A stretch of 64,000 nucleotides of DNA from Haloplanus natans DSM 17983 (GTDB lineage Archaea > Halobacteriota > Halobacteria > Halobacteriales > Haloferacaceae). The number at the start of each line of letters is the position of its first letter. Position 1 is the first letter of the stretch. The translations under genes and the position numbers were made by a program. Of the stretch, positions 51,644 through 61,009 are shown piece after piece. The notes beneath the pieces are model-generated. The model did not search any database. It was given only the letters and a program-made list of their open reading frames with translations, and was not told where the DNA came from. The DNA is taken from contig NZ_KE386573.1 in the NCBI RefSeq assembly GCF_000427685.1, forward strand, positions 868,001 through 932,000. Reading direction: 5' to 3'.

Positions 51644-52180
51644 TCACAGCAATTGCTGGAGGTAGAGCCACCGCCGCGACCAGAACTGGTAGAGCGTCGA
51701 CACGGCGATGATCATCAGAAATAGGCTCGCCCACAGTAGCGGATCGATCGCCGAGACGAACGGCGTGTTGGTGGAGGCCAGGACGATGCTGAGAAGCGAG
51801 ATGGTGCCGAGTGCGCGGTAGTACGTCGCCCACGTGACGCCGTAACGTGTGACGACCTCCATATACAGGTCGACTTGGCGGGCGGACTTCCTGAGGATGA
51901 TCGTCTTTCGGTCGCTATCGTAGTCGACGATTCCCGCGTCGTCGAGTTTCGGGAGGTGGGTCTGGTGGAGCGAGACGTAGACGCTGTCCCGGATGTTGCT
52001 CGGCGGCGGTGACTCGCTTGTCTCGATTTCGGCGATGTGCTCCGCGAGATCGCGAAGCGATACTTCGCTCCCCCGATCCTGGAGGCACTTGATCACGTTC
52101 CGCCGTCGGTCGTTCCGGAGGATGTCGTGGATGTCCGTCTCCGGAAGTACCTCGTCCGTCTGGAGTAGTCCGATGTTCAT
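51644..52180 (-). CDS. DUF7344-type HTH protein with membrane anchor, candidate regulator
   Basis: 178 residues from ATG 52180. Residues 15-95 form the haloarchaeal DUF7344-like winged HTH (ILRNDRRRNVIKCLQDRG, SLRDLAEHIAEIE, VSLHQTHLPKLDDAGIVDYD). Two hydrophobic helices follow (about 125-165), so the DNA-binding domain is probably membrane-tethered. It is divergent from the run of TasA-like surface protein genes and is the best candidate for their regulator. Confidence 0.8.
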   Translation of the reverse strand: MNIGLLQTDEVLPETDIHDILRNDRRRNVIKCLQDRGSEVSLRDLAEHIAEIETSESPPPSNIRDSVYVSLHQTHLPKLDDAGIVDYDSDRKTIILRKSARQVDLYMEVVTRYGVTWATYYRALGTISLLSIVLASTNTPFVSAIDPLLWASLFLMIIAVSTLYQFWSRRWLYLQQLL

Positions 52181-52564
52181 GTGTAGCGACCAGGTAGGAT
52201 GACCAACACGACAATAGGGCATAGTTATCAGGAGCTTTCCCCGCGGACGGCCGGGCCTGAATCGGATTCTAATTCCCGGTTATACGAACATACCTCCTCC
52301 GTATTTCTCGGGTTTCGAGGCTTCTATACGGTTAACAACTGGTTAATGCGCGGGTGCGACCCGCGCGTGTCTAGCTGTTAGCCTCTTGTCACGTGGTGCG
52401 AGGAGTAATCGGACCTTTACTCGGATTATTCTCTCGTTATGTGAGCGAATTGGCGATTAGCTATATGGGTAGGTGTTATGTGTAGCAGTGTCCGGTCACC
52501 CACGTCGGTCGTCACGGCGGTTCGACTCCGCCGGTGGGCGTCCCCTCACGGGGGGAGAGACACA
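52181..52564. promoter_or_regulatory. Divergent intergenic region with hairpins, leader of the first TasA-like gene
   Basis: It contains an 8-bp hairpin GCGCGGGT-gcg-ACCCGCGC (52348-52366). GAGTAATCGGA and TCGGATTATTC form an imperfect inverted repeat near 52401-52430. A TATA-like GCTATATGG lies at about 52459. The T-arm-like hairpin is listed separately. Confidence 0.5.
52515..52533 (+). promoter_or_regulatory. tRNA T-arm-like leader hairpin, copy 1
   Basis: CGGCGG-TTCGACT-CCGCCG forms a 6-bp stem with a 7-nt loop like a tRNA T-arm, followed by GTGGGC. A second small hairpin TCCCC/GGGGA (52541-52556) follows. It ends 31 nt before ATG 52565. Two more copies stand before the next two secreted-protein genes. 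Confidence 0.75.
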
Positions 52565-53638
52565 ATGGACGAACGATTCGACATTTCACGGCGGAAGGCA
52601 CTGGCCGCGCTCGGCACCATCGGGGTAGCGTCGGCGGGCGCCGGACTCGGCACGAGCGCGTACTTCAGCGACCAGGAGACGTTCGAGAACAACTCGCTCG
52701 TGGCCGGGACGCTCGATATGGGCGTTTCCTACTCGGCGCACTACTCGGACTGGAGCGACGACGAGGACGGCAGCGACACGACGACGACTCAAGACGATGT
52801 CGATGTCAACATGTGGGACGGCGGTCCGAACACGACCGGCACTGCCTCGGACCTTACGAGCGGGTACACCGGCCTCCCGACGAACGACGCGTGGCTGATC
52901 GAGGTCGACAACCCAGAACAGTTCCTCGAAAACACAGAGACGGAATCGTACAACGACGAAACAGCGCTTACGTGTACGAATGGTACGGCAACCTCGCAGG
53001 CAGACGACGCTCCCAAGCCAGTCATCGACTTGGGTGACGTGAAGCCGGGTGACTTCGGCGAGGTCACCTTCGATTTCATCCTCTGTGACAATCCCGGCTA
53101 CGTCTGGATCAACGGCGAACTGCAGAACGCAAGCGAGAATGGCGTCACCGAGCCTGAAGCCGACGATCCAGACGAGGATCAGGTCGAGGGGACGCAGGCA
53201 GAACCCCCGCTGAAAGCCGGCGAATCCGGCGAAGCGGTGGTAGAGCTTCTCGATGTCGTGCAGGCGGCGGTCTGGGTCGATGACGGAGACAATTATCAGG
53301 ACAAGGACCCAGCCGAGCCGTTCGAAGCCGTGAAAACGGGATCCCTCCGACAAGTGCTGGGCATGATCGAAGGTTCCAACGGGACAGCACTCACCGGTAA
53401 CATGAATGCCGAAACGGGTGGCGGCACGGGGAGTCAGGGTTGCTTCTCTGCCAATACGGAACACTCGGTTGTCTTCGCGTGGTGGGTCCCGGTCGATCAC
53501 GGCAACCAGATCCAGTCCGACAGCGCGGAGTTCACGCTCGGCTTCTACACCGAGCAGTGCCGCCACAACGACGGGAGCGGCATGAACAACGAGAATCTCG
53601 GTCCGCAGACCGACGACGACGCGGAGACGCCCTCGTAA
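52565..53638 (+). CDS. TasA/camelysin-like surface protein with SipW-type signal peptide
   Basis: 357 residues from ATG 52565. The signal region SRRKALAALGTIGVASAGAG, then SAYFSDQETFENNSLVAGTL, is the SipW-dependent type. The mature part is acidic and beta-rich, with DVKPGDFGEVTFDFILCDNPG, VWINGEL and FAWWVPVDHGNQIQSDSAEF near the end, plus conserved cysteines (for example FYTEQCRHNDGSGMNN). Related proteins form fibres or surface layers. It is probably processed by the signal peptidase at 57033. It has N-glycosylation-type NxS/T sites. Confidence 0.85.
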   Translation: MDERFDISRRKALAALGTIGVASAGAGLGTSAYFSDQETFENNSLVAGTLDMGVSYSAHYSDWSDDEDGSDTTTTQDDVDVNMWDGGPNTTGTASDLTSGYTGLPTNDAWLIEVDNPEQFLENTETESYNDETALTCTNGTATSQADDAPKPVIDLGDVKPGDFGEVTFDFILCDNPGYVWINGELQNASENGVTEPEADDPDEDQVEGTQAEPPLKAGESGEAVVELLDVVQAAVWVDDGDNYQDKDPAEPFEAVKTGSLRQVLGMIEGSNGTALTGNMNAETGGGTGSQGCFSANTEHSVVFAWWVPVDHGNQIQSDSAEFTLGFYTEQCRHNDGSGMNNENLGPQTDDDAETPS

Positions 53639-53797: not shown

Positions 53798-55801
53798 ATG
53801 TCAAACGATTTCGAACTGTCGCGGCGGAAGGCACTCGCCGCACTCGGTAGCATCGGCGTGGCGTCTGCTGGAGCGGGGCTCGGTACGTCCGCGTACTTCA
53901 GCGATCAAGAGACGTTCCAGAACAACTCGCTGACGGCCGGTGAACTGGACCTCAAGGTCGACTGGGAGGAGCACTACTCCGACTGGTCGGCGGATGAAAA
54001 TACTGATCGGACCGAGGAGGATGGTGGTGAACTCGGTGAAACTAATTCCAGTGAATTCGATGTTCTGATGGAGGAACCGACGAATCCCGACGGATATCGC
54101 GCATTCCCACCCGGTGCATCGGAGCCGCTAATCTGGGTCCCTGACCAGTACGTGGACGATTTCATGGACAACACGTCCATCGAAGGGTTCCCCGATTCCG
54201 ATAATAACGGGATTACCGACTTCCCGATCGAAGAGACAAACGGCCGAGGTCCGTGTGAGTACTTGGCCGACGTGGGTGGCGACGACCAAGGACTCGATCC
54301 GGACAGCGATCCCCTGGGCCGAACCGACAACGACGACACGCGTCTCGACGACGACTCTCCGGCGCCACTGATCAATCTTCAGGACGTGAAGCCCGGTGAC
54401 TTCGGCGAGATCACGTTCAGCACGCATCTCTGTGACAACGACGGCTACCTGTGGATGAACATGCCGGACGGCTTAGATGCGAGCGAAAGCGGTGTTACCG
54501 AACCGGAGGGTGACGACCCTGACGAAGACGCACCGGAAGGGGACACCGTCGAACTCGTTGACGATATCCAGACGGTGATCTGGTACGACAACAACTGTGA
54601 CAACCTGATCACCTGTGACGATCCGATCGATATCATGGCGGTGGCGGACACCTCCGGAAGTATAGGTGGTTCGCTGAGCAATAGCAACACCGAGGAGGAG
54701 ATCGACCTCATCCGTGATGGTGCAAATACGTTCGTGGACGAGTTGGCTTCGAGTCCGAACGCGGATCAGATCAGAGCCGGTCTCTTGACATTCAACGGTC
54801 CGGGTGACGCCGGTGGCAATAGTGGTGCACCGAGAACGTTCAACCGGCCAGCGCTGCGAGCCGGCCTCGGACCCCTCAGTCAGTTCGATACGGATGGCGA
54901 CGGTAATGCGAACGCCGGAGAGTTCCTCCCTGACACCGGGAACGGCAACACACCAACCCCCCACGCGCTGGATCTTGCGAAACAAGTCCTTGACGATCAG
55001 GGCCGAAACAATGCACGCCAAGTCATCGTGCTCATCGCCGATGGGCTGCCGAACTACACCAGTCCAGAGTCCAGTACCACTCCGTACACTGTCACGGATG
55101 CAGAGGGCAGTCCGCTCTCCGGAAGTGGTGCGACATACACCTCAAATACGCTTGCCAACTATCCGTACGACGGTCTCGGCGGTGATGGGATCTCTTCGAG
55201 TGACGAGCAAGAAGAGACTGCACTCGCTGCGGAAAACGTCCAGCAGGCAGGTATCCCGATCATCGTAGCGGGGATCAGCCTCGATCAGGCCTCCTCGAAC
55301 GCCGACGACTTCCTGCGCGACGTGGTTGCGGGTGACGACGGCGACCGGACCAACTCTCAGATGAATCAGGGATTCTTCTTCAACGCTGCGTTTAATCCCG
55401 GTCCTGGCGAGGACAGCGTTACCGATGTCGCCGACGCAATCGCTCAAGCCCTCGTCGGTGGGGATGAAGGCGTGTGCGACGAAACGATCTTCAGTGGAAC
55501 GCTCAAAGAGGCCGAAGAGGCTCTTACCGCGAACGATGGTCGTGGTATCCCGCTTGATGCCGATCGAGATACGCCGTTCGACGAACTCAACGATCCCGAG
55601 GACTCCGAGATGCGAGAGTGTTTCTCGTCGGCATACACTGCCTGCTTTGGCTTCTCGTGGTGGCTACCAGCCGACCACGGCAACGAGGTCCAGTCCGATT
55701 CCGTCTCGTTTGATATCGGCTTCTACACCGAGCAGTGCCGCCACAACGACGGCAGCGGCATGAACAACGCCGAAGTTCGTCCGGAAGAGACGGACGCCTA
55801 A
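53798..55801 (+). CDS. TasA-like surface protein with an inserted von Willebrand A domain
   Basis: 667 residues from ATG 53798. The signal region (SRRKALAALGSIGVASAGAG and SAYFSDQETFQNNSLTAGEL) and first 268 residues match the preceding paralogue, including DVKPGDFGEITFSTHLCDND. Residues about 270-560 are a vWA domain with MIDAS motif DTSGS (284-288), IVLIADGLPNY and PIIVAGISLD. The TasA-like fold resumes at about 561 (IFSGTLKEAEEAL) and ends with FSWWLPADHGNEVQSDSVSF and FYTEQCRHNDGSGMNN. The vWA domain is therefore inserted in a loop. It probably mediates metal-dependent adhesion outside the cell. Confidence 0.88.
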   Translation: MSNDFELSRRKALAALGSIGVASAGAGLGTSAYFSDQETFQNNSLTAGELDLKVDWEEHYSDWSADENTDRTEEDGGELGETNSSEFDVLMEEPTNPDGYRAFPPGASEPLIWVPDQYVDDFMDNTSIEGFPDSDNNGITDFPIEETNGRGPCEYLADVGGDDQGLDPDSDPLGRTDNDDTRLDDDSPAPLINLQDVKPGDFGEITFSTHLCDNDGYLWMNMPDGLDASESGVTEPEGDDPDEDAPEGDTVELVDDIQTVIWYDNNCDNLITCDDPIDIMAVADTSGSIGGSLSNSNTEEEIDLIRDGANTFVDELASSPNADQIRAGLLTFNGPGDAGGNSGAPRTFNRPALRAGLGPLSQFDTDGDGNANAGEFLPDTGNGNTPTPHALDLAKQVLDDQGRNNARQVIVLIADGLPNYTSPESSTTPYTVTDAEGSPLSGSGATYTSNTLANYPYDGLGGDGISSSDEQEETALAAENVQQAGIPIIVAGISLDQASSNADDFLRDVVAGDDGDRTNSQMNQGFFFNAAFNPGPGEDSVTDVADAIAQALVGGDEGVCDETIFSGTLKEAEEALTANDGRGIPLDADRDTPFDELNDPEDSEMRECFSSAYTACFGFSWWLPADHGNEVQSDSVSFDIGFYTEQCRHNDGSGMNNAEVRPEETDA

Positions 55802-55888: not shown

Positions 55889-56710
55889 ATGCCGCTCGAT
55901 TCGCTCACTCGACGGCGGATTCTCGCCGCGGTCGGGAGCGCCGGCGCTCTCTACCTCGGTATGGACAGAGCGGCGGCGACACTCGGATACGGAACGGTCG
56001 ACATGAACCAGCGAACGGTGAACGGGACGTACGCACAGACCCAGGGGTTCGCCGACGAGAATCCGCCACCGCGGATCGGGCTCACGTGGCGCGAAATCGT
56101 AAACGGGACCGTGCAGGAAGACACGGGACTCACGAGCACGACGGACGGCGAGGCCGGCAGCGTCGGCCTGATCGTCGACGAGGCGGTCGTGCCCGGCGAC
56201 TCGGGGTCCGTGACCATGCGGGCGCGGTTGCTCAGCGGGGCGGACGTCGACGCCGCGAACACGGCGAACGCGGAACTGTACCTGCTCGCCCACATCTCCG
56301 ACACGGCGGAAAACGGGATCAACGAACCGGAACGGGACGCAGGGGACACCGCGGATACCGACGGCCTGCCCGGGGATCTGGCCGAACACGTCCGAATGGC
56401 CGTCTGGGTGGACGAAAGTATCCTCACCGGCGACGGCAACGGCGAACTCGAGGACCTCCCGATCATCGGCGATACGCCTATTGCGGAGGGTTCGCTCGCA
56501 CAGGTCGCCACGGCGTCCGATCTGGCCGGCGACGCACGCGGTAACACGGGTGGCTACCGAATTTCGGTCGGCGGCGACACGTGTCTCTCCCCGGGCGACG
56601 AGGTGTACGTCTCGTTCGAATGGGAGATTCCGGAGAGTGTCGGCAACGTCATTCAAGGGGATTCGGCCACGTTCCAGGTCGGCTTCGATCCTCGGCCGTG
56701 TCCGGAGTGA
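55889..56710 (+). CDS. Secreted TasA/SipW-cargo-like protein
   Basis: 273 residues from ATG 55889; TTG 55886 in frame is less likely. The N terminus TRRRILAAVGSAGALYLG is a Tat/SipW-type signal. The mature protein is acidic, with VPGDSGSVTMRARLLSG, AELYLLAHISDTAENGINEP and YVSFEWEIPESVGNVIQGDS, parallel to the last strands of the two TasA-like proteins. It is more diverged from them than they are from each other. Its leader carries the same T-arm-like hairpin, supporting co-regulation. Confidence 0.8.
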   Translation: MPLDSLTRRRILAAVGSAGALYLGMDRAAATLGYGTVDMNQRTVNGTYAQTQGFADENPPPRIGLTWREIVNGTVQEDTGLTSTTDGEAGSVGLIVDEAVVPGDSGSVTMRARLLSGADVDAANTANAELYLLAHISDTAENGINEPERDAGDTADTDGLPGDLAEHVRMAVWVDESILTGDGNGELEDLPIIGDTPIAEGSLAQVATASDLAGDARGNTGGYRISVGGDTCLSPGDEVYVSFEWEIPESVGNVIQGDSATFQVGFDPRPCPE

Positions 56711-57032: not shown

Positions 57033-58220
57033 ATGGACCTGATGAACGACCGGAACGTTCCGCGGCTGGCAGTGAACGTGCTGGTAGTGCTCGTGCTGGC
57101 GGCCGTCGTCGTTCCCTTCGTCGTGTACGCAGTGCCGGGTGTCGTCGGCGCGGACCACGGGCTCGTCGTCCTCTCCGGCAGCATGGAACCGAAGATGAGT
57201 CCGGGCGACGCGGTCATCGTCCGGGAAGTGCCGGCGTCGGAGATTCAGGAACGGGATATCATCACGTTCCAGCGAGCCGGCAGCGAGACGCCGACGACGC
57301 ACCGCGTGATCGAGAAACGGCAGACAGAAAACGGCGTCGAGTACGTCACGAAAGGCGACGCGAACGAGGAGCGGGACCGCGGAACGGTTCCCCAGAGCCG
57401 CGTAATCGGCGAGGTAATCTTCGTGATTCCGTTCATCGGCCACGTGGTTCAGTTCGCCAACACGCAGCTCGGCTTCTTGACGCTCGTACTCACGCCGATG
57501 GCGCTGTTCGTGCTCTCGGAGCTCTGGGAACTGGCGAAGTCGGTCCGAGAGCCCGACGCGTCGAAGGACGAAGCGACCGATGACCCCGCCGTTCCGGCCG
57601 ACGCGGCCGCGGAATCCGGGTCGGTGGATACCGGTGTCGACGCCGACGCTGGAACCGACACTGACACCGACGGCGACGATAGTGGGTTCACCCTCACCCG
57701 TTCGAGCCTGCAGTTGATCGTCCTCCTCCTCGGACTGTACGTCCCGTACAGCGGATACGTAGCGTGGACGACGCGTGAAGCGTGGTCGATCGGCGCCGCG
57801 ACGGCCACCGGGATCGCGTTCCTGTTCGGTGTCGTCCTCTATCTCGCCAGTCGTGGCGCCGGCGGTGGATCGACATCGACGACGAGTCGATCGGTCGACG
57901 GCGTCGTCAGACGCGGCGAGCTACCGGCACAGATCGGCGAGCGGACGACGATCCCGCTCGAGTCGGTCGAATCACTGGTTCAGATGGCGCTCGACCGCGA
58001 CGACTGGGTCATCTACGACGACGACGAGGACACGTACTACATGACTCGGGACGACGCCCTGTACCTACACCGTGCGTCGCCGGAGACCGACGGCGGGACC
58101 GCGTTCGACGGCGGGACATCGGAGGTCGATAGCGTGAGCGCCGACGGGGCGTCGAGCGAATCGGCGCCCGGAGACCGATCCGAGAGCGACGATACGAAGA
58201 CGGGCGGTGGCGACGTGTGA
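57033..58220 (+). CDS. SipW-type signal peptidase I with long C-terminal extension
   Basis: 395 residues from ATG 57033. One helix (VLVVLVLAAVVVPFVVYAV) is followed by the catalytic Ser50 in LSGSMEPKMSPGD. His90 in TTHRVIEK replaces the bacterial Lys, as in ER/archaeal-type enzymes. KGDANEERD holds the conserved Asp. After two further helices comes an acidic linker and two more helices, then a soluble tail of about 120 residues (ERTTIPLESVESLVQMALDR). This extension exceeds the usual SipW length (about 190-240). It heads an operon of overlapping genes and likely cleaves the neighbouring cargo proteins. Confidence 0.88.
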   Translation: MDLMNDRNVPRLAVNVLVVLVLAAVVVPFVVYAVPGVVGADHGLVVLSGSMEPKMSPGDAVIVREVPASEIQERDIITFQRAGSETPTTHRVIEKRQTENGVEYVTKGDANEERDRGTVPQSRVIGEVIFVIPFIGHVVQFANTQLGFLTLVLTPMALFVLSELWELAKSVREPDASKDEATDDPAVPADAAAESGSVDTGVDADAGTDTDTDGDDSGFTLTRSSLQLIVLLLGLYVPYSGYVAWTTREAWSIGAATATGIAFLFGVVLYLASRGAGGGSTSTTSRSVDGVVRRGELPAQIGERTTIPLESVESLVQMALDRDDWVIYDDDEDTYYMTRDDALYLHRASPETDGGTAFDGGTSEVDSVSADGASSESAPGDRSESDDTKTGGGDV

Positions 58221-59296
58221 GCGACCGCCGCCCCCTGTCGCGCCGAAAGCTCCTCTTGGCGGTGGCTACCACCGGGGCTGCGGCGTCGACGGGGAGCGGT
58301 GCGGCGGCGATGTTCCACGATTCGGAGACGACCACGTCGGCGGTGACAGCGGGGACACTGGATCTCGAACTCGGGCCGTGGACGAGCGATGGCGCAGGTC
58401 CGAGTCCGTTCGAAGACGGTACGGTCTCGAACGGTGACAGCGGTCGGGAACGGCGTGAACTTTCGATTTCCGATAACCCCGGATATCTCTGGTTCCGGAC
58501 GGCGTGCGCTTGCGATCCGGTTACTCCGGTCGAAGAAGCGCTGTTCCTCCGATTCGGAGTCGACGAAGATGGCGACGGCACCGTCGATCGGTGGCTCACT
58601 GACGACCACCTGTCGCTCCGTGAGAGTCGCGAGCGGTTCGGAGACGGTGTCAGCATCGGTGAACTTCCCACGACGACGACGTGGCAGTTCGTCGTGGACT
58701 GGAAAGTCGATGTCGAGGAGAACATTACCGACGAAACCACCGTCGAGTTCGACTTCGTGTTCTACGCCACGCAGTCGCGCCACGTGATGAACGCGGACTC
58801 CGTCGCGCCCGACTGGGAGTGTGACTGCGACGGGACCGGCGGTGGCGAAGGGGGTAGCGAGTCGCTTCCGGGCATCAGTTGGGTTGCCTTCTGTGCGTCC
58901 GAACCGTTCTCGAAAAACGACCTCGAATTCTCCCGGAGTGAGGACGAACGGACGCTCACGCTCACGAGCGTTCCGGATGCAGTCGACACTATCGCGCTCA
59001 AATACGGGCCGTATCTGGACGTGTTCACCGACCTCCCACAGTCGACTCTCACGGTCGGGACTGGCGGGATGTACGAAAAACAGGGTACCCAGTACCCGGG
59101 AACCAACCCCACGCGCTCCAACGGCGTTCCGTGTCCGGAGTCGTACGGCTGCAAATACGAATTCGAGGAGGAGATGTGGGAGTGCAAGAACAACCTGACG
59201 GACGACGGAACCAGCGGGAACAACGACGTGGTCGACTCCATGGGCAGCCACCCCTCGCTCCGCTCCGTGGCCCACTCGGCGGGGGGTGAGGACTGA
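58217..59296 (+). CDS. Secreted SipW-cargo protein
   Basis: 359 residues from GTG 58217, overlapping the signal peptidase stop (GTGA). The signal LSRRKLLLAVATTGAAASTG is followed by AMFHDSETTTSAVTAGTLDL, the SipW-cargo pattern. Beta-rich segments include DNPGYLWFRTACACDPV and TTTTWQFVVDWKVDVEE. The C-terminal part (from about 225) is a separate domain with several cysteines (CASEPF, CPESYGCKYEFEEEMWECKN). It probably forms part of a surface fibre or matrix. Confidence 0.82.
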   Translation: MSDRRPLSRRKLLLAVATTGAAASTGSGAAAMFHDSETTTSAVTAGTLDLELGPWTSDGAGPSPFEDGTVSNGDSGRERRELSISDNPGYLWFRTACACDPVTPVEEALFLRFGVDEDGDGTVDRWLTDDHLSLRESRERFGDGVSIGELPTTTTWQFVVDWKVDVEENITDETTVEFDFVFYATQSRHVMNADSVAPDWECDCDGTGGGEGGSESLPGISWVAFCASEPFSKNDLEFSRSEDERTLTLTSVPDAVDTIALKYGPYLDVFTDLPQSTLTVGTGGMYEKQGTQYPGTNPTRSNGVPCPESYGCKYEFEEEMWECKNNLTDDGTSGNNDVVDSMGSHPSLRSVAHSAGGED

Positions 59297-61009
59297 ATGT
59301 CGTCCGACGACTTCGACTTCGACTTCGACTGGACTTCCGTTGCGACGCTGGTCGCCGCGTTCGTCGTCATCGCCGCGGCTTCCGGCGGTGCGACGTACAC
59401 GTCCCTCTCCGATACGGAACAGTCACCGGGGAACATAACGGTCGAACCGTCGTTCACCCTCGGGACGTATCAGGTGACCCCGATATCCTGCAGTGAGGCC
59501 AAGTCGGCGAAAGCGACGGGCGTGACTCCTAATCCCGCCAAGCAGGAGCCGGTCAAGACCTTCGATGTCGAGGGTGAAGGGAAGTGTGCACAGATTTCGT
59601 TCTGGCTCGCACCGTTCTGGTTCGGAGATGCGGATCCCCAGAATTCCACCGTTGGCCACTACGTTCGCGGCGAGTGGGTGTGGCTGGAGACGAGCGTCGG
59701 TATGGAGACCGACGGTACGGTCAGAATCGACACCGTGACCACGAACGGATACAGCCCGTTCGCGGTGTTCGTGTCCAACGGGACACAGCCGAAACCGACA
59801 CAGGTCGCCGGGAACGTCACGCCAGCGAACGCCACGTCTGCAAACGAGACGACGCAGAACGGAACGGCTCCGGCATCCGGCGCACAATCGTCGGCAGGGC
59901 AGACGGAGAACGGAAGCACCACCGTCAACGGCGCGAACTTGAACAGCACTCAGTCGGGAAGTGGCTCCCAGACCGGCACTGGTTCGGCGACCGAGTCTGA
60001 CCCGTCCGAAACTTCGGGTGGTGGCAGTCGTGACGACGGGAGTAGCGACGGCGGCGAGACGAAGAATGGTGGGACGAAGGAGAGCGGCGAGACGAAAGAT
60101 GGCCAGACGAAGAACGGTGAGGGCGGCGAGACGAAGAAGAGCGGCGAGACGAAGAAGAGCGGCGAGACGAAGGAGAGCGGCGAGACGAAGAAGAGCGGTG
60201 GCCAGACGAAGGATGGCCAGACGAAGAACGGTGGGACGGACGACGGCGAGAGCAGCGAGACGAAGAGCGGTGAGGGTGGCGAGACGAAGGACGGTGAGAC
60301 GAAGGAGAGCGGTGGGACGAAGGACGGTGAGACGAAGGAGAGCGGTGGGACGAAGGACGGTGAGACGAAGGAGAGCGGTGGGACGAAGGATGGCGAGACG
60401 AAGGAGAGCGGTGGGACGAAGGACGGTGAGACGAAGGAGAGCGGTGGGACGAAGGATGGCGAGACGAAGGAGAGCGGTGGGACGGACGACGGCGAGAGCA
60501 GCGAGACGAAGAGCGGTGAGGGTGGCAAGACGAAGGACGGTGAGACGAAGGAGAGCGGTGGGACGGACGACGGCGAGAGCAGCGAGACGAAGAGCGGTGA
60601 GGGCGGCGAGACGAAGGATGGCCAGACGAAAGAGAGCGGTGGTGAGACGAAGAACGGTGGGACGGACGGCGGTGAGGACGGCGAGACGGAGACCGGCGGC
60701 GAGACCGAGACCGGTAATGGCGGCGAGACCGAGACCGGTAATGGCGGCGAGACGGACGGCGGCGATGGTGGAGAAACCGATGGTGGTGACGCCGACGGCG
60801 GAGAGACCGATGACGGCGGCGACGGTGGAGAAACCGATGGTGGTGACGCCGACGGCGGAGAGACCGATGACGGCGGCGACGGTGGCGAGACGGACGGCGG
60901 CGATGGTGGCGAGACGGACGGCGGCGATGGTGGCGACGCAGACGATGGCGGAGAGACCAACAACGCCGACGATGGCGACGAGACCTCGGACAGTAACACG
61001 GAACAATGA
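59297..61009 (+). CDS. Secreted protein with long ETK/GGE repeat stalk
   Basis: 570 residues from ATG 59297. A hydrophobic N-terminal helix (VATLVAAFVVIAAASGGATY) acts as signal or anchor. Residues about 40-165 form a small folded domain (CSEAKSAKATGVTPNP, YSPFAVFVSNGT). Then come a Thr/Asn/Ser-rich stretch with many NxT/S sites, about 210 residues of GGTKDGETKES-type repeats, and an acidic GGETDGGD tail. The stop overlaps the next gene (ATGA). It is probably an extended, hydrophilic surface stalk or matrix polymer. Confidence 0.8.
   Translation: MSSDDFDFDFDWTSVATLVAAFVVIAAASGGATYTSLSDTEQSPGNITVEPSFTLGTYQVTPISCSEAKSAKATGVTPNPAKQEPVKTFDVEGEGKCAQISFWLAPFWFGDADPQNSTVGHYVRGEWVWLETSVGMETDGTVRIDTVTTNGYSPFAVFVSNGTQPKPTQVAGNVTPANATSANETTQNGTAPASGAQSSAGQTENGSTTVNGANLNSTQSGSGSQTGTGSATESDPSETSGGGSRDDGSSDGGETKNGGTKESGETKDGQTKNGEGGETKKSGETKKSGETKESGETKKSGGQTKDGQTKNGGTDDGESSETKSGEGGETKDGETKESGGTKDGETKESGGTKDGETKESGGTKDGETKESGGTKDGETKESGGTKDGETKESGGTDDGESSETKSGEGGKTKDGETKESGGTDDGESSETKSGEGGETKDGQTKESGGETKNGGTDGGEDGETETGGETETGNGGETETGNGGETDGGDGGETDGGDADGGETDDGGDGGETDGGDADGGETDDGGDGGETDGGDGGETDGGDGGDADDGGETNNADDGDETSDSNTEQ
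60037..60680 (+). repeat. Tandem coding repeats, 33-bp unit (GGTKDGETKES)
   Basis: The unit is repeated about six times without interruption near 60290-60483, with degenerate units on both sides. A separate 57-bp unit encoding GGETDGGDADGGETDDGGD is repeated twice near 60770-60884. Such arrays change length by slippage or recombination. Confidence 0.8.

Follow-up and report, generated by a model that had tools for sequence, protein, structure and literature searches.

The window, a stretch of 64,000 nucleotides from Haloplanus natans DSM 17983 (contig NZ_KE386573.1), contains the following genes and features, with residue numbers referring to P0001 unless stated otherwise.

51644-52222, minus strand: divergently transcribed regulator-like gene, 192 aa; homologues lie upstream in most loci
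52565-53638, plus strand: P0002, the upstream paralogue without insert, 357 aa; insertion site at its residues 240-256 (53282-53332)
53798-55801, plus strand: P0001, TasA-like scaffold protein with an inserted von Willebrand A (vWA) domain, 667 aa
53798-53890, plus strand: SipW-type signal peptide, residues ~1-31 (TIGR04088 at residues 17-50)
53891-54589, plus strand: TasA-like scaffold, first part, residues 32-264
54590-55477, plus strand: inserted vWA domain with linkers, residues 265-560 (PF00092; 277-554 in the AF2 model)
54647-54661, plus strand: MIDAS motif 1, DTSGS, residues 284-288 (D in 42/42, S in 42/42 and S in 41/42 vWA inserts)
54950-54952, plus strand: MIDAS Thr385 (T in 36/42 vWA inserts)
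55040-55042, plus strand: MIDAS Asp415 (D in 38/42 vWA inserts)
55478-55798, plus strand: TasA-like scaffold, second part, residues 561-667
55889-56710, plus strand: P0003, divergent short TasA-like paralogue, 273 aa
57033-58220, plus strand: SipW-like archaeal signal peptidase I (TIGR02228, E=3e-30, above cut-off)
58217-59296, plus strand: exported protein with a weak camelysin/SipW-type N-terminus (PF12389, 20.6 bits, below cut-off)

The P0001 gene is intact, a single uninterrupted frame running from the ATG at 53798 to the stop at 55801 and encoding 667 aa. The product matches the SipW-dependent-type signal peptide model TIGR04088 (E=1e-7, 31.9 bits vs a cut-off of 19), and its N-terminus is of the camelysin/TasA type (PF12389, 25 bits vs a cut-off of 22.5). 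Cleavage probably occurs between ...GTSA and YFSD, a site placed by analogy with TasA (...A followed by AFND). Residues 32-264 comprise a putative N-terminal donor strand, the KPGD strand pair and a strand ending in IQTVIWYD, and residues 561-667 comprise the ETIFSGTL strand/helix followed by the FSWWLP..NEVQSDS..FYTEQCRHNDG strands, with the protein terminating in ...HNDGSGMNNAEVRPEETDA. The full-length protein lacks a sorting motif, a recognised anchor and a C-terminal hydrophobic segment. It also lacks a class III signal and a pilin N-terminal domain, as its signal is SipW-type and it returned zero pilin-family matches.

According to the sequence-only reading, segments shared with the upstream paralogue flank a vWA domain of about 290 residues, at a position where the paralogue has only a short loop. 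Comparison of the two proteins agrees with this description. BLASTP aligned residues 1-264 of P0001 with 1-239 of P0002 (42% identity, E=2e-51) and residues 608-666 with 293-351 (59% identity), giving no notable alignment between these two segments, and the scaffold profile extended the second flank to residues ~562-588 ('IFSGTLKEA...GIPLDA'). Because the flanks therefore reach up to residue 264 and resume at ~562, the insert corresponds to residues ~265-560, so that the insertion site holds ~296 aa in P0001 vs ~17 aa (residues 240-256) in P0002. Both junctions are also spanned in alignments with 15 homologues, which come from the same genus and one further family. As the junctions recur in these homologues and in all 43 large inserts of the survey described below, the insertion is not a product of chance, and the conserved two-sided junction rules out a terminal fusion or a frame artefact.

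The inserted domain was recognised by Pfam as VWA (PF00092) at residues 278-424 of the full protein (E=1.2e-8, above the curated cut-off) and in the insert alone (E=4.4e-10), in accord with the earlier report of a vWA domain with an intact DTSGS, which occupies residues 284-288. The MIDAS of P0001 is complete (D284, S286, S288, T385 and D415), a residue set from which we infer that the domain binds metal. Inserts in other scaffolds share 16-59% sequence identity with that of P0001. In alignments, the MIDAS of the long vWA forms of haloarchaeal scaffolds is flanked by additional segments that may match the arms of RrgA/GBS104-type adhesins.

Predicted structures of the two paralogues bear on whether the vWA domain could instead be terminal. 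In the AlphaFold model of P0001, which is of modest confidence (16 sequences, mean pLDDT 59.5), strand 258-263 leads into the vWA domain (~277-554) and strand 562-568 returns to the scaffold; since one strand enters and the other leaves, the vWA domain is internal. In the P0002 model (103 sequences or fragments, pLDDT 77.6, pTM 0.76), the equivalent site is a short loop, 240-256, connecting strands 233-239 and 257-260. The claim of a clean domain insertion thus holds in the models as well as at the junctions. The putative N-terminal donor segment has no clear placement in either model. The best PDB matches of the P0001 model by Foldseek were the pilus-tip adhesins SpaC (E=1e-11), PitA, RrgA and GBS104, together with the modular pilin PilB, and the model also matched many vWA structures. 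For the P0002 model the sole PDB match at E<0.001 was the TasA fibre 8aur (E=1e-4, prob 1.00), with modest TM-scores of 0.28/0.40, which fits the TasA-like fold proposed from the letters; weaker matches to other donor-strand filaments included Pyrobaculum bundling pili (7ueg, E 0.066) and Sulfolobus threads (7pnb, E 0.10). The predicted TasA beta-sandwich fold is thus direct for the P0002 model and applies to P0001 through its alignment with P0002.

With regard to sequence, hhalign comparison of the scaffold profile with the single TasA sequence (that of 8aur) produced short, weak matches (E ~0.05, probability ~1%), although the motifs fall at the right places despite the weak score. A PDB profile search with the scaffold did not return TasA. 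We therefore set aside the idea that TasA homology is proven by sequence alone, and the case for kinship combines three lines of evidence: the fold, the type of signal and the gene cluster.

The sequence-only reading had proposed a search for other domains at the same loop of related proteins, and beta-propellers were found there. We surveyed 102 scaffolds, drawn from named haloarchaea and from genomes of the same genus, a sample that leans to vWA because the query itself carried a vWA domain. Loop length was bimodal, at either 5-34 or 188-323 residues. vWA models match up to 39 of the 43 large inserts, the other four (L018, L019, L052 and L064) being beta-propeller-like, with propeller inserts matching DUF6923/SGL; two further propellers (L056 and L067) occur among unparsed cases. 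Another 34 proteins, sampled on the basis of the scaffold, included 15 with inserts at the loop, 12 of them vWA and three propeller as assigned by reading insert starts. One loop on related haloarchaeal scaffolds thus carries nothing, a vWA domain or a beta-propeller. A 'YDxx.DN/NN' strand end (typically 'WYDxxxDN') precedes all 43 large inserts and 'E[EK][VI]F.G[TS]' (typically 'EEVFxG[TS]L') follows most. Insert-free relatives read, for example, WYDTDGDNVLDEGEEVFF at this site; as this loop sequence is acidic, cargo enters an acidic loop, possibly one that binds calcium. The propeller domains in the loop equivalent to that of P0001 are ~250 aa (L018:1477-3303, L019, L052:9992-11749, L056:3800-5539, L064:10213-12051 and L067:9932-11818), and more were seen in L096, L098 and L099.

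In a scaffold tree built with the cargo columns removed, the propeller proteins fall within one strongly supported clade (100/96) that also includes three vWA proteins. Within it, the propeller protein L052 clusters with the vWA proteins L044 and L050 at 100/85, the three scaffolds being 68-70% identical and their cargo unrelated. Since such near kin carry either a propeller or a vWA domain, the loop is a site of exchange, and the starred branches require at least two cargo changes at it within the propeller clade. A single old vWA insertion without later change is rejected, as the tree needs ~13 vWA changes, at least nine of them forced by starred branches, in a count that treats gains and losses alike and enters L058, vWA by reading, as a propeller. 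Insertion, loss and recombination between tandem copies are all compatible with the tree and cannot be told apart as the means of change.

In addition to a few divergent scaffolds, the genome itself encodes at least 12 of full size. Three have a vWA domain at the same loop (P0001, L009 and L010), and in L014 (6429-8039) the insert, an unnamed one, is at a second loop. Others carry C-terminal cargo: FG-GAP repeats (L011:5809-8265), LamG (L012:6985-8532), a right-handed beta-helix (L013:5735-7726) and a plastocyanin-like copper domain (L015:6659-8149). The second loop, between GIPLDG and CF..WW, has inserts of 148-227 aa in L014, L046, L053, L059, L061, L063, L064, L065 and L066; a recurring type reads roughly SGNPKC..TYxTxxGxIT..VIVKGGxxGANVYxYD..ISHVxFC and matched no Pfam family. 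Second-loop inserts were also placed at L041:6899, L053:13427 and L062:13730, although the coarse automatic labels of the locus survey called these three vWA, and the insert at L062:21018 lies before site A. In one same-genus scaffold (L032:301-2376) the vWA domain is fused at the C-terminus rather than inserted, and vWA has therefore been joined to the scaffold in more than one way.

Scaffold matches (E<=1e-20) were present in 50/145 sampled genomes of the class. In other classes of the same phylum, matches (E<=1e-12) occurred in three genomes only, and the two of these listed in detail are short frames of ~250 aa, too small to accommodate a large insert. Related scaffolds also occur in Patescibacteria, and those seen there lack a vWA domain. 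A conserved N-terminal segment is common to scaffolds with and without cargo and is among their best conserved parts.

The genes around the scaffolds recur in a common order, which the window displays: first a divergent regulator-like gene, next a single scaffold or several that differ in cargo, frequently a P0003-type gene, and then a SipW-like peptidase, found in 24/27 named loci. The regulator-like product (51644-52222) is presumed, from its sequence, to have an HTH fold. The P0003-type gene is the conserved next-downstream gene in many arrays, between the scaffolds and the signal peptidase; P0003 itself (55889-56710) has an altered N-terminus and is a candidate starter, cap or anchor of a fibre. 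The peptidase (57033-58220) matches the SipW model NF046067 at E=1e-27, below cut-off, and has a C-terminal extension matching DUF5305 (PF17231, E=2e-8). Homologues of the exported protein at 58217-59296 are co-conserved in other arrays.

The Bacillus subtilis protein TasA (8aur/5of1), encoded in the tapA-sipW-tasA operon, is the closest parallel to the scaffold. The two share a SipW-type signal with a SipW-like peptidase in the cluster, a beta-sandwich with a significant structural match, and KPGD and NxxQxxS motifs in the same order. TasA differs in having no inserted domain (its equivalent loop, placed by eye, is apparently 118-127, KEGGNGYPKN), whereas the haloarchaeal scaffolds are larger, number at least 12 paralogues in this genome and carry cargo. 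TasA fibres assemble by strand donation, in which each subunit fills out the sandwich of its neighbour with its N-terminal strand (PMC9674648). Given this mode of assembly and the conserved N-terminal segment, P0001 would enter a fibre of P0002-like subunits. We therefore propose, with a probability of roughly two in three, that P0001 is a TasA-like secreted subunit of a donor-strand fibre on which the loop-inserted vWA domain is displayed for attachment. P0001 would be exported by means of its SipW-type signal and processed by the signal peptidase encoded in the same cluster, and its N-terminal segment would serve as the donor strand, linking it to plain P0002-like subunits in the fashion of TasA. 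The vWA domain would be held out from the fibre, at its tip or sideways along it, where the MIDAS metal could bind a ligand on cells, matrix or minerals, and the scaffold loop would act as a standing cargo site holding nothing, a vWA domain or a beta-propeller.

One alternative, which we consider doubtful, is that the TasA-like proteins do not polymerise and are single secreted or surface-held carriers, the vWA domain being a free soluble binder. TasA also has a stable monomeric form (PMC9674648), full-length P0001 has no recognised anchor or sortase motif, and fibre formation by the haloarchaeal proteins is something that we infer. However, the putative donor-strand segment is among the best conserved parts of the scaffold, the structural match is to TasA in its fibre form, and neighbouring genes encode several related subunits, an arrangement that a mixed polymer would lead one to expect. 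Equally unlikely, in our estimate, is a subunit that polymerises but whose vWA domain is structural or regulatory, for example by binding another subunit through its MIDAS, capping the fibre or tethering it to the S-layer. vWA domains also act in protein-complex assembly, and the remaining kinds of cargo at the loop are not necessarily adhesive. In the Sulfolobus thread system, moreover, a protein that lacks an acceptor site is a putative cap (PMC9715654). Against such a role, the divergence of the inserts and the exchange of unrelated domains fit varied outward targets better, and the best structural matches of P0001 are adhesins. An annotation or assembly artefact, or the chance adjacency of two genes, can be dismissed, as the frame is uninterrupted and the identical junction is found in many genomes and families.

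Filament subunits with a grafted adhesive module are already known as a kind, and the TasA-like loop version preferred here is new and moderately surprising. In Streptococcus sanguinis PilB, a vWA domain on a filament subunit mediates adhesion (PMC8179133). PilB and other modular type IV pilins resemble P0001 in presenting a vWA domain with a MIDAS through a loop and in the modularity of their cargo, but the PilB scaffold is a type IV pilin with a class III signal, and its vWA domain comes after the pilin module instead of splitting a TasA-like sandwich. In RrgA and GBS104 the vWA domain is inserted between two stalk halves and, in RrgA, is a tip domain (PMC7893114). These proteins, SpaC and PitA, the top Foldseek matches of P0001, resemble it in a vWA domain that lies between the sequence halves of an Ig-like stalk and has extra arms, but they are sortase-assembled, with a C-terminal sorting signal and a stalk that is not TasA-like. 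The Pyrobaculum pili (7ueg) and Sulfolobus threads (7pnb) are likewise secreted archaeal donor-strand filaments, but their subunits are single-domain in the solved structures and their likeness to P0002 is one of predicted fold. In the literature searched, which covered few subscription papers, we found no prior description of haloarchaeal TasA, of SipW or camelysin there, or of vWA-bearing TasA-like proteins.

The vWA insertion in P0001 is one instance of a wider pattern, in which domains are exchanged at one scaffold loop, and the variation of that loop across haloarchaea suggests that these proteins are plug-in building blocks of fibres for attachment. We give even odds to a broader haloarchaeal system in which tandem TasA-like subunits form mixed filaments by donor-strand exchange and are loaded repeatedly with exchangeable domains (vWA, beta-propeller, the unnamed domain, LamG, halocyanin-like and beta-helix) at the acidic hairpin (WYDxDGDNxxxxxEEVF), the second loop and the C-terminus, so that each strain would display its own, shifting repertoire of binding functions. 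Among biofilm-fibre subunits TasA is the reference, and the haloarchaeal loop bears on the cargo of such fibres in archaea. Close scaffolds that hold nothing, a vWA domain or a propeller offer a direct route to haloarchaeal attachment, aggregation and partner recognition, would carry the modular-pilin principle over to a class of filaments in which it is not known, and mark the loop as a naturally tested insertion point for domain display on fibres.

Directly downstream of the cluster, 59297-61009 encodes a 570-aa exported protein that consists mostly of ESGGTKDGETK-type repeats and has a weak SipW-type signal. Patescibacterial loci (L068-L076) contain several TasA-like scaffolds each, and in some of these proteins a large additional domain separates the N-terminal segment from the KPGD strand. 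Finally, chain C of PDB entry 9p0a ('Pilin', 215 aa, with a similar signal) gave a weak profile match to the scaffold N-terminus (E=0.0085) and could be a relative with a solved filament structure.
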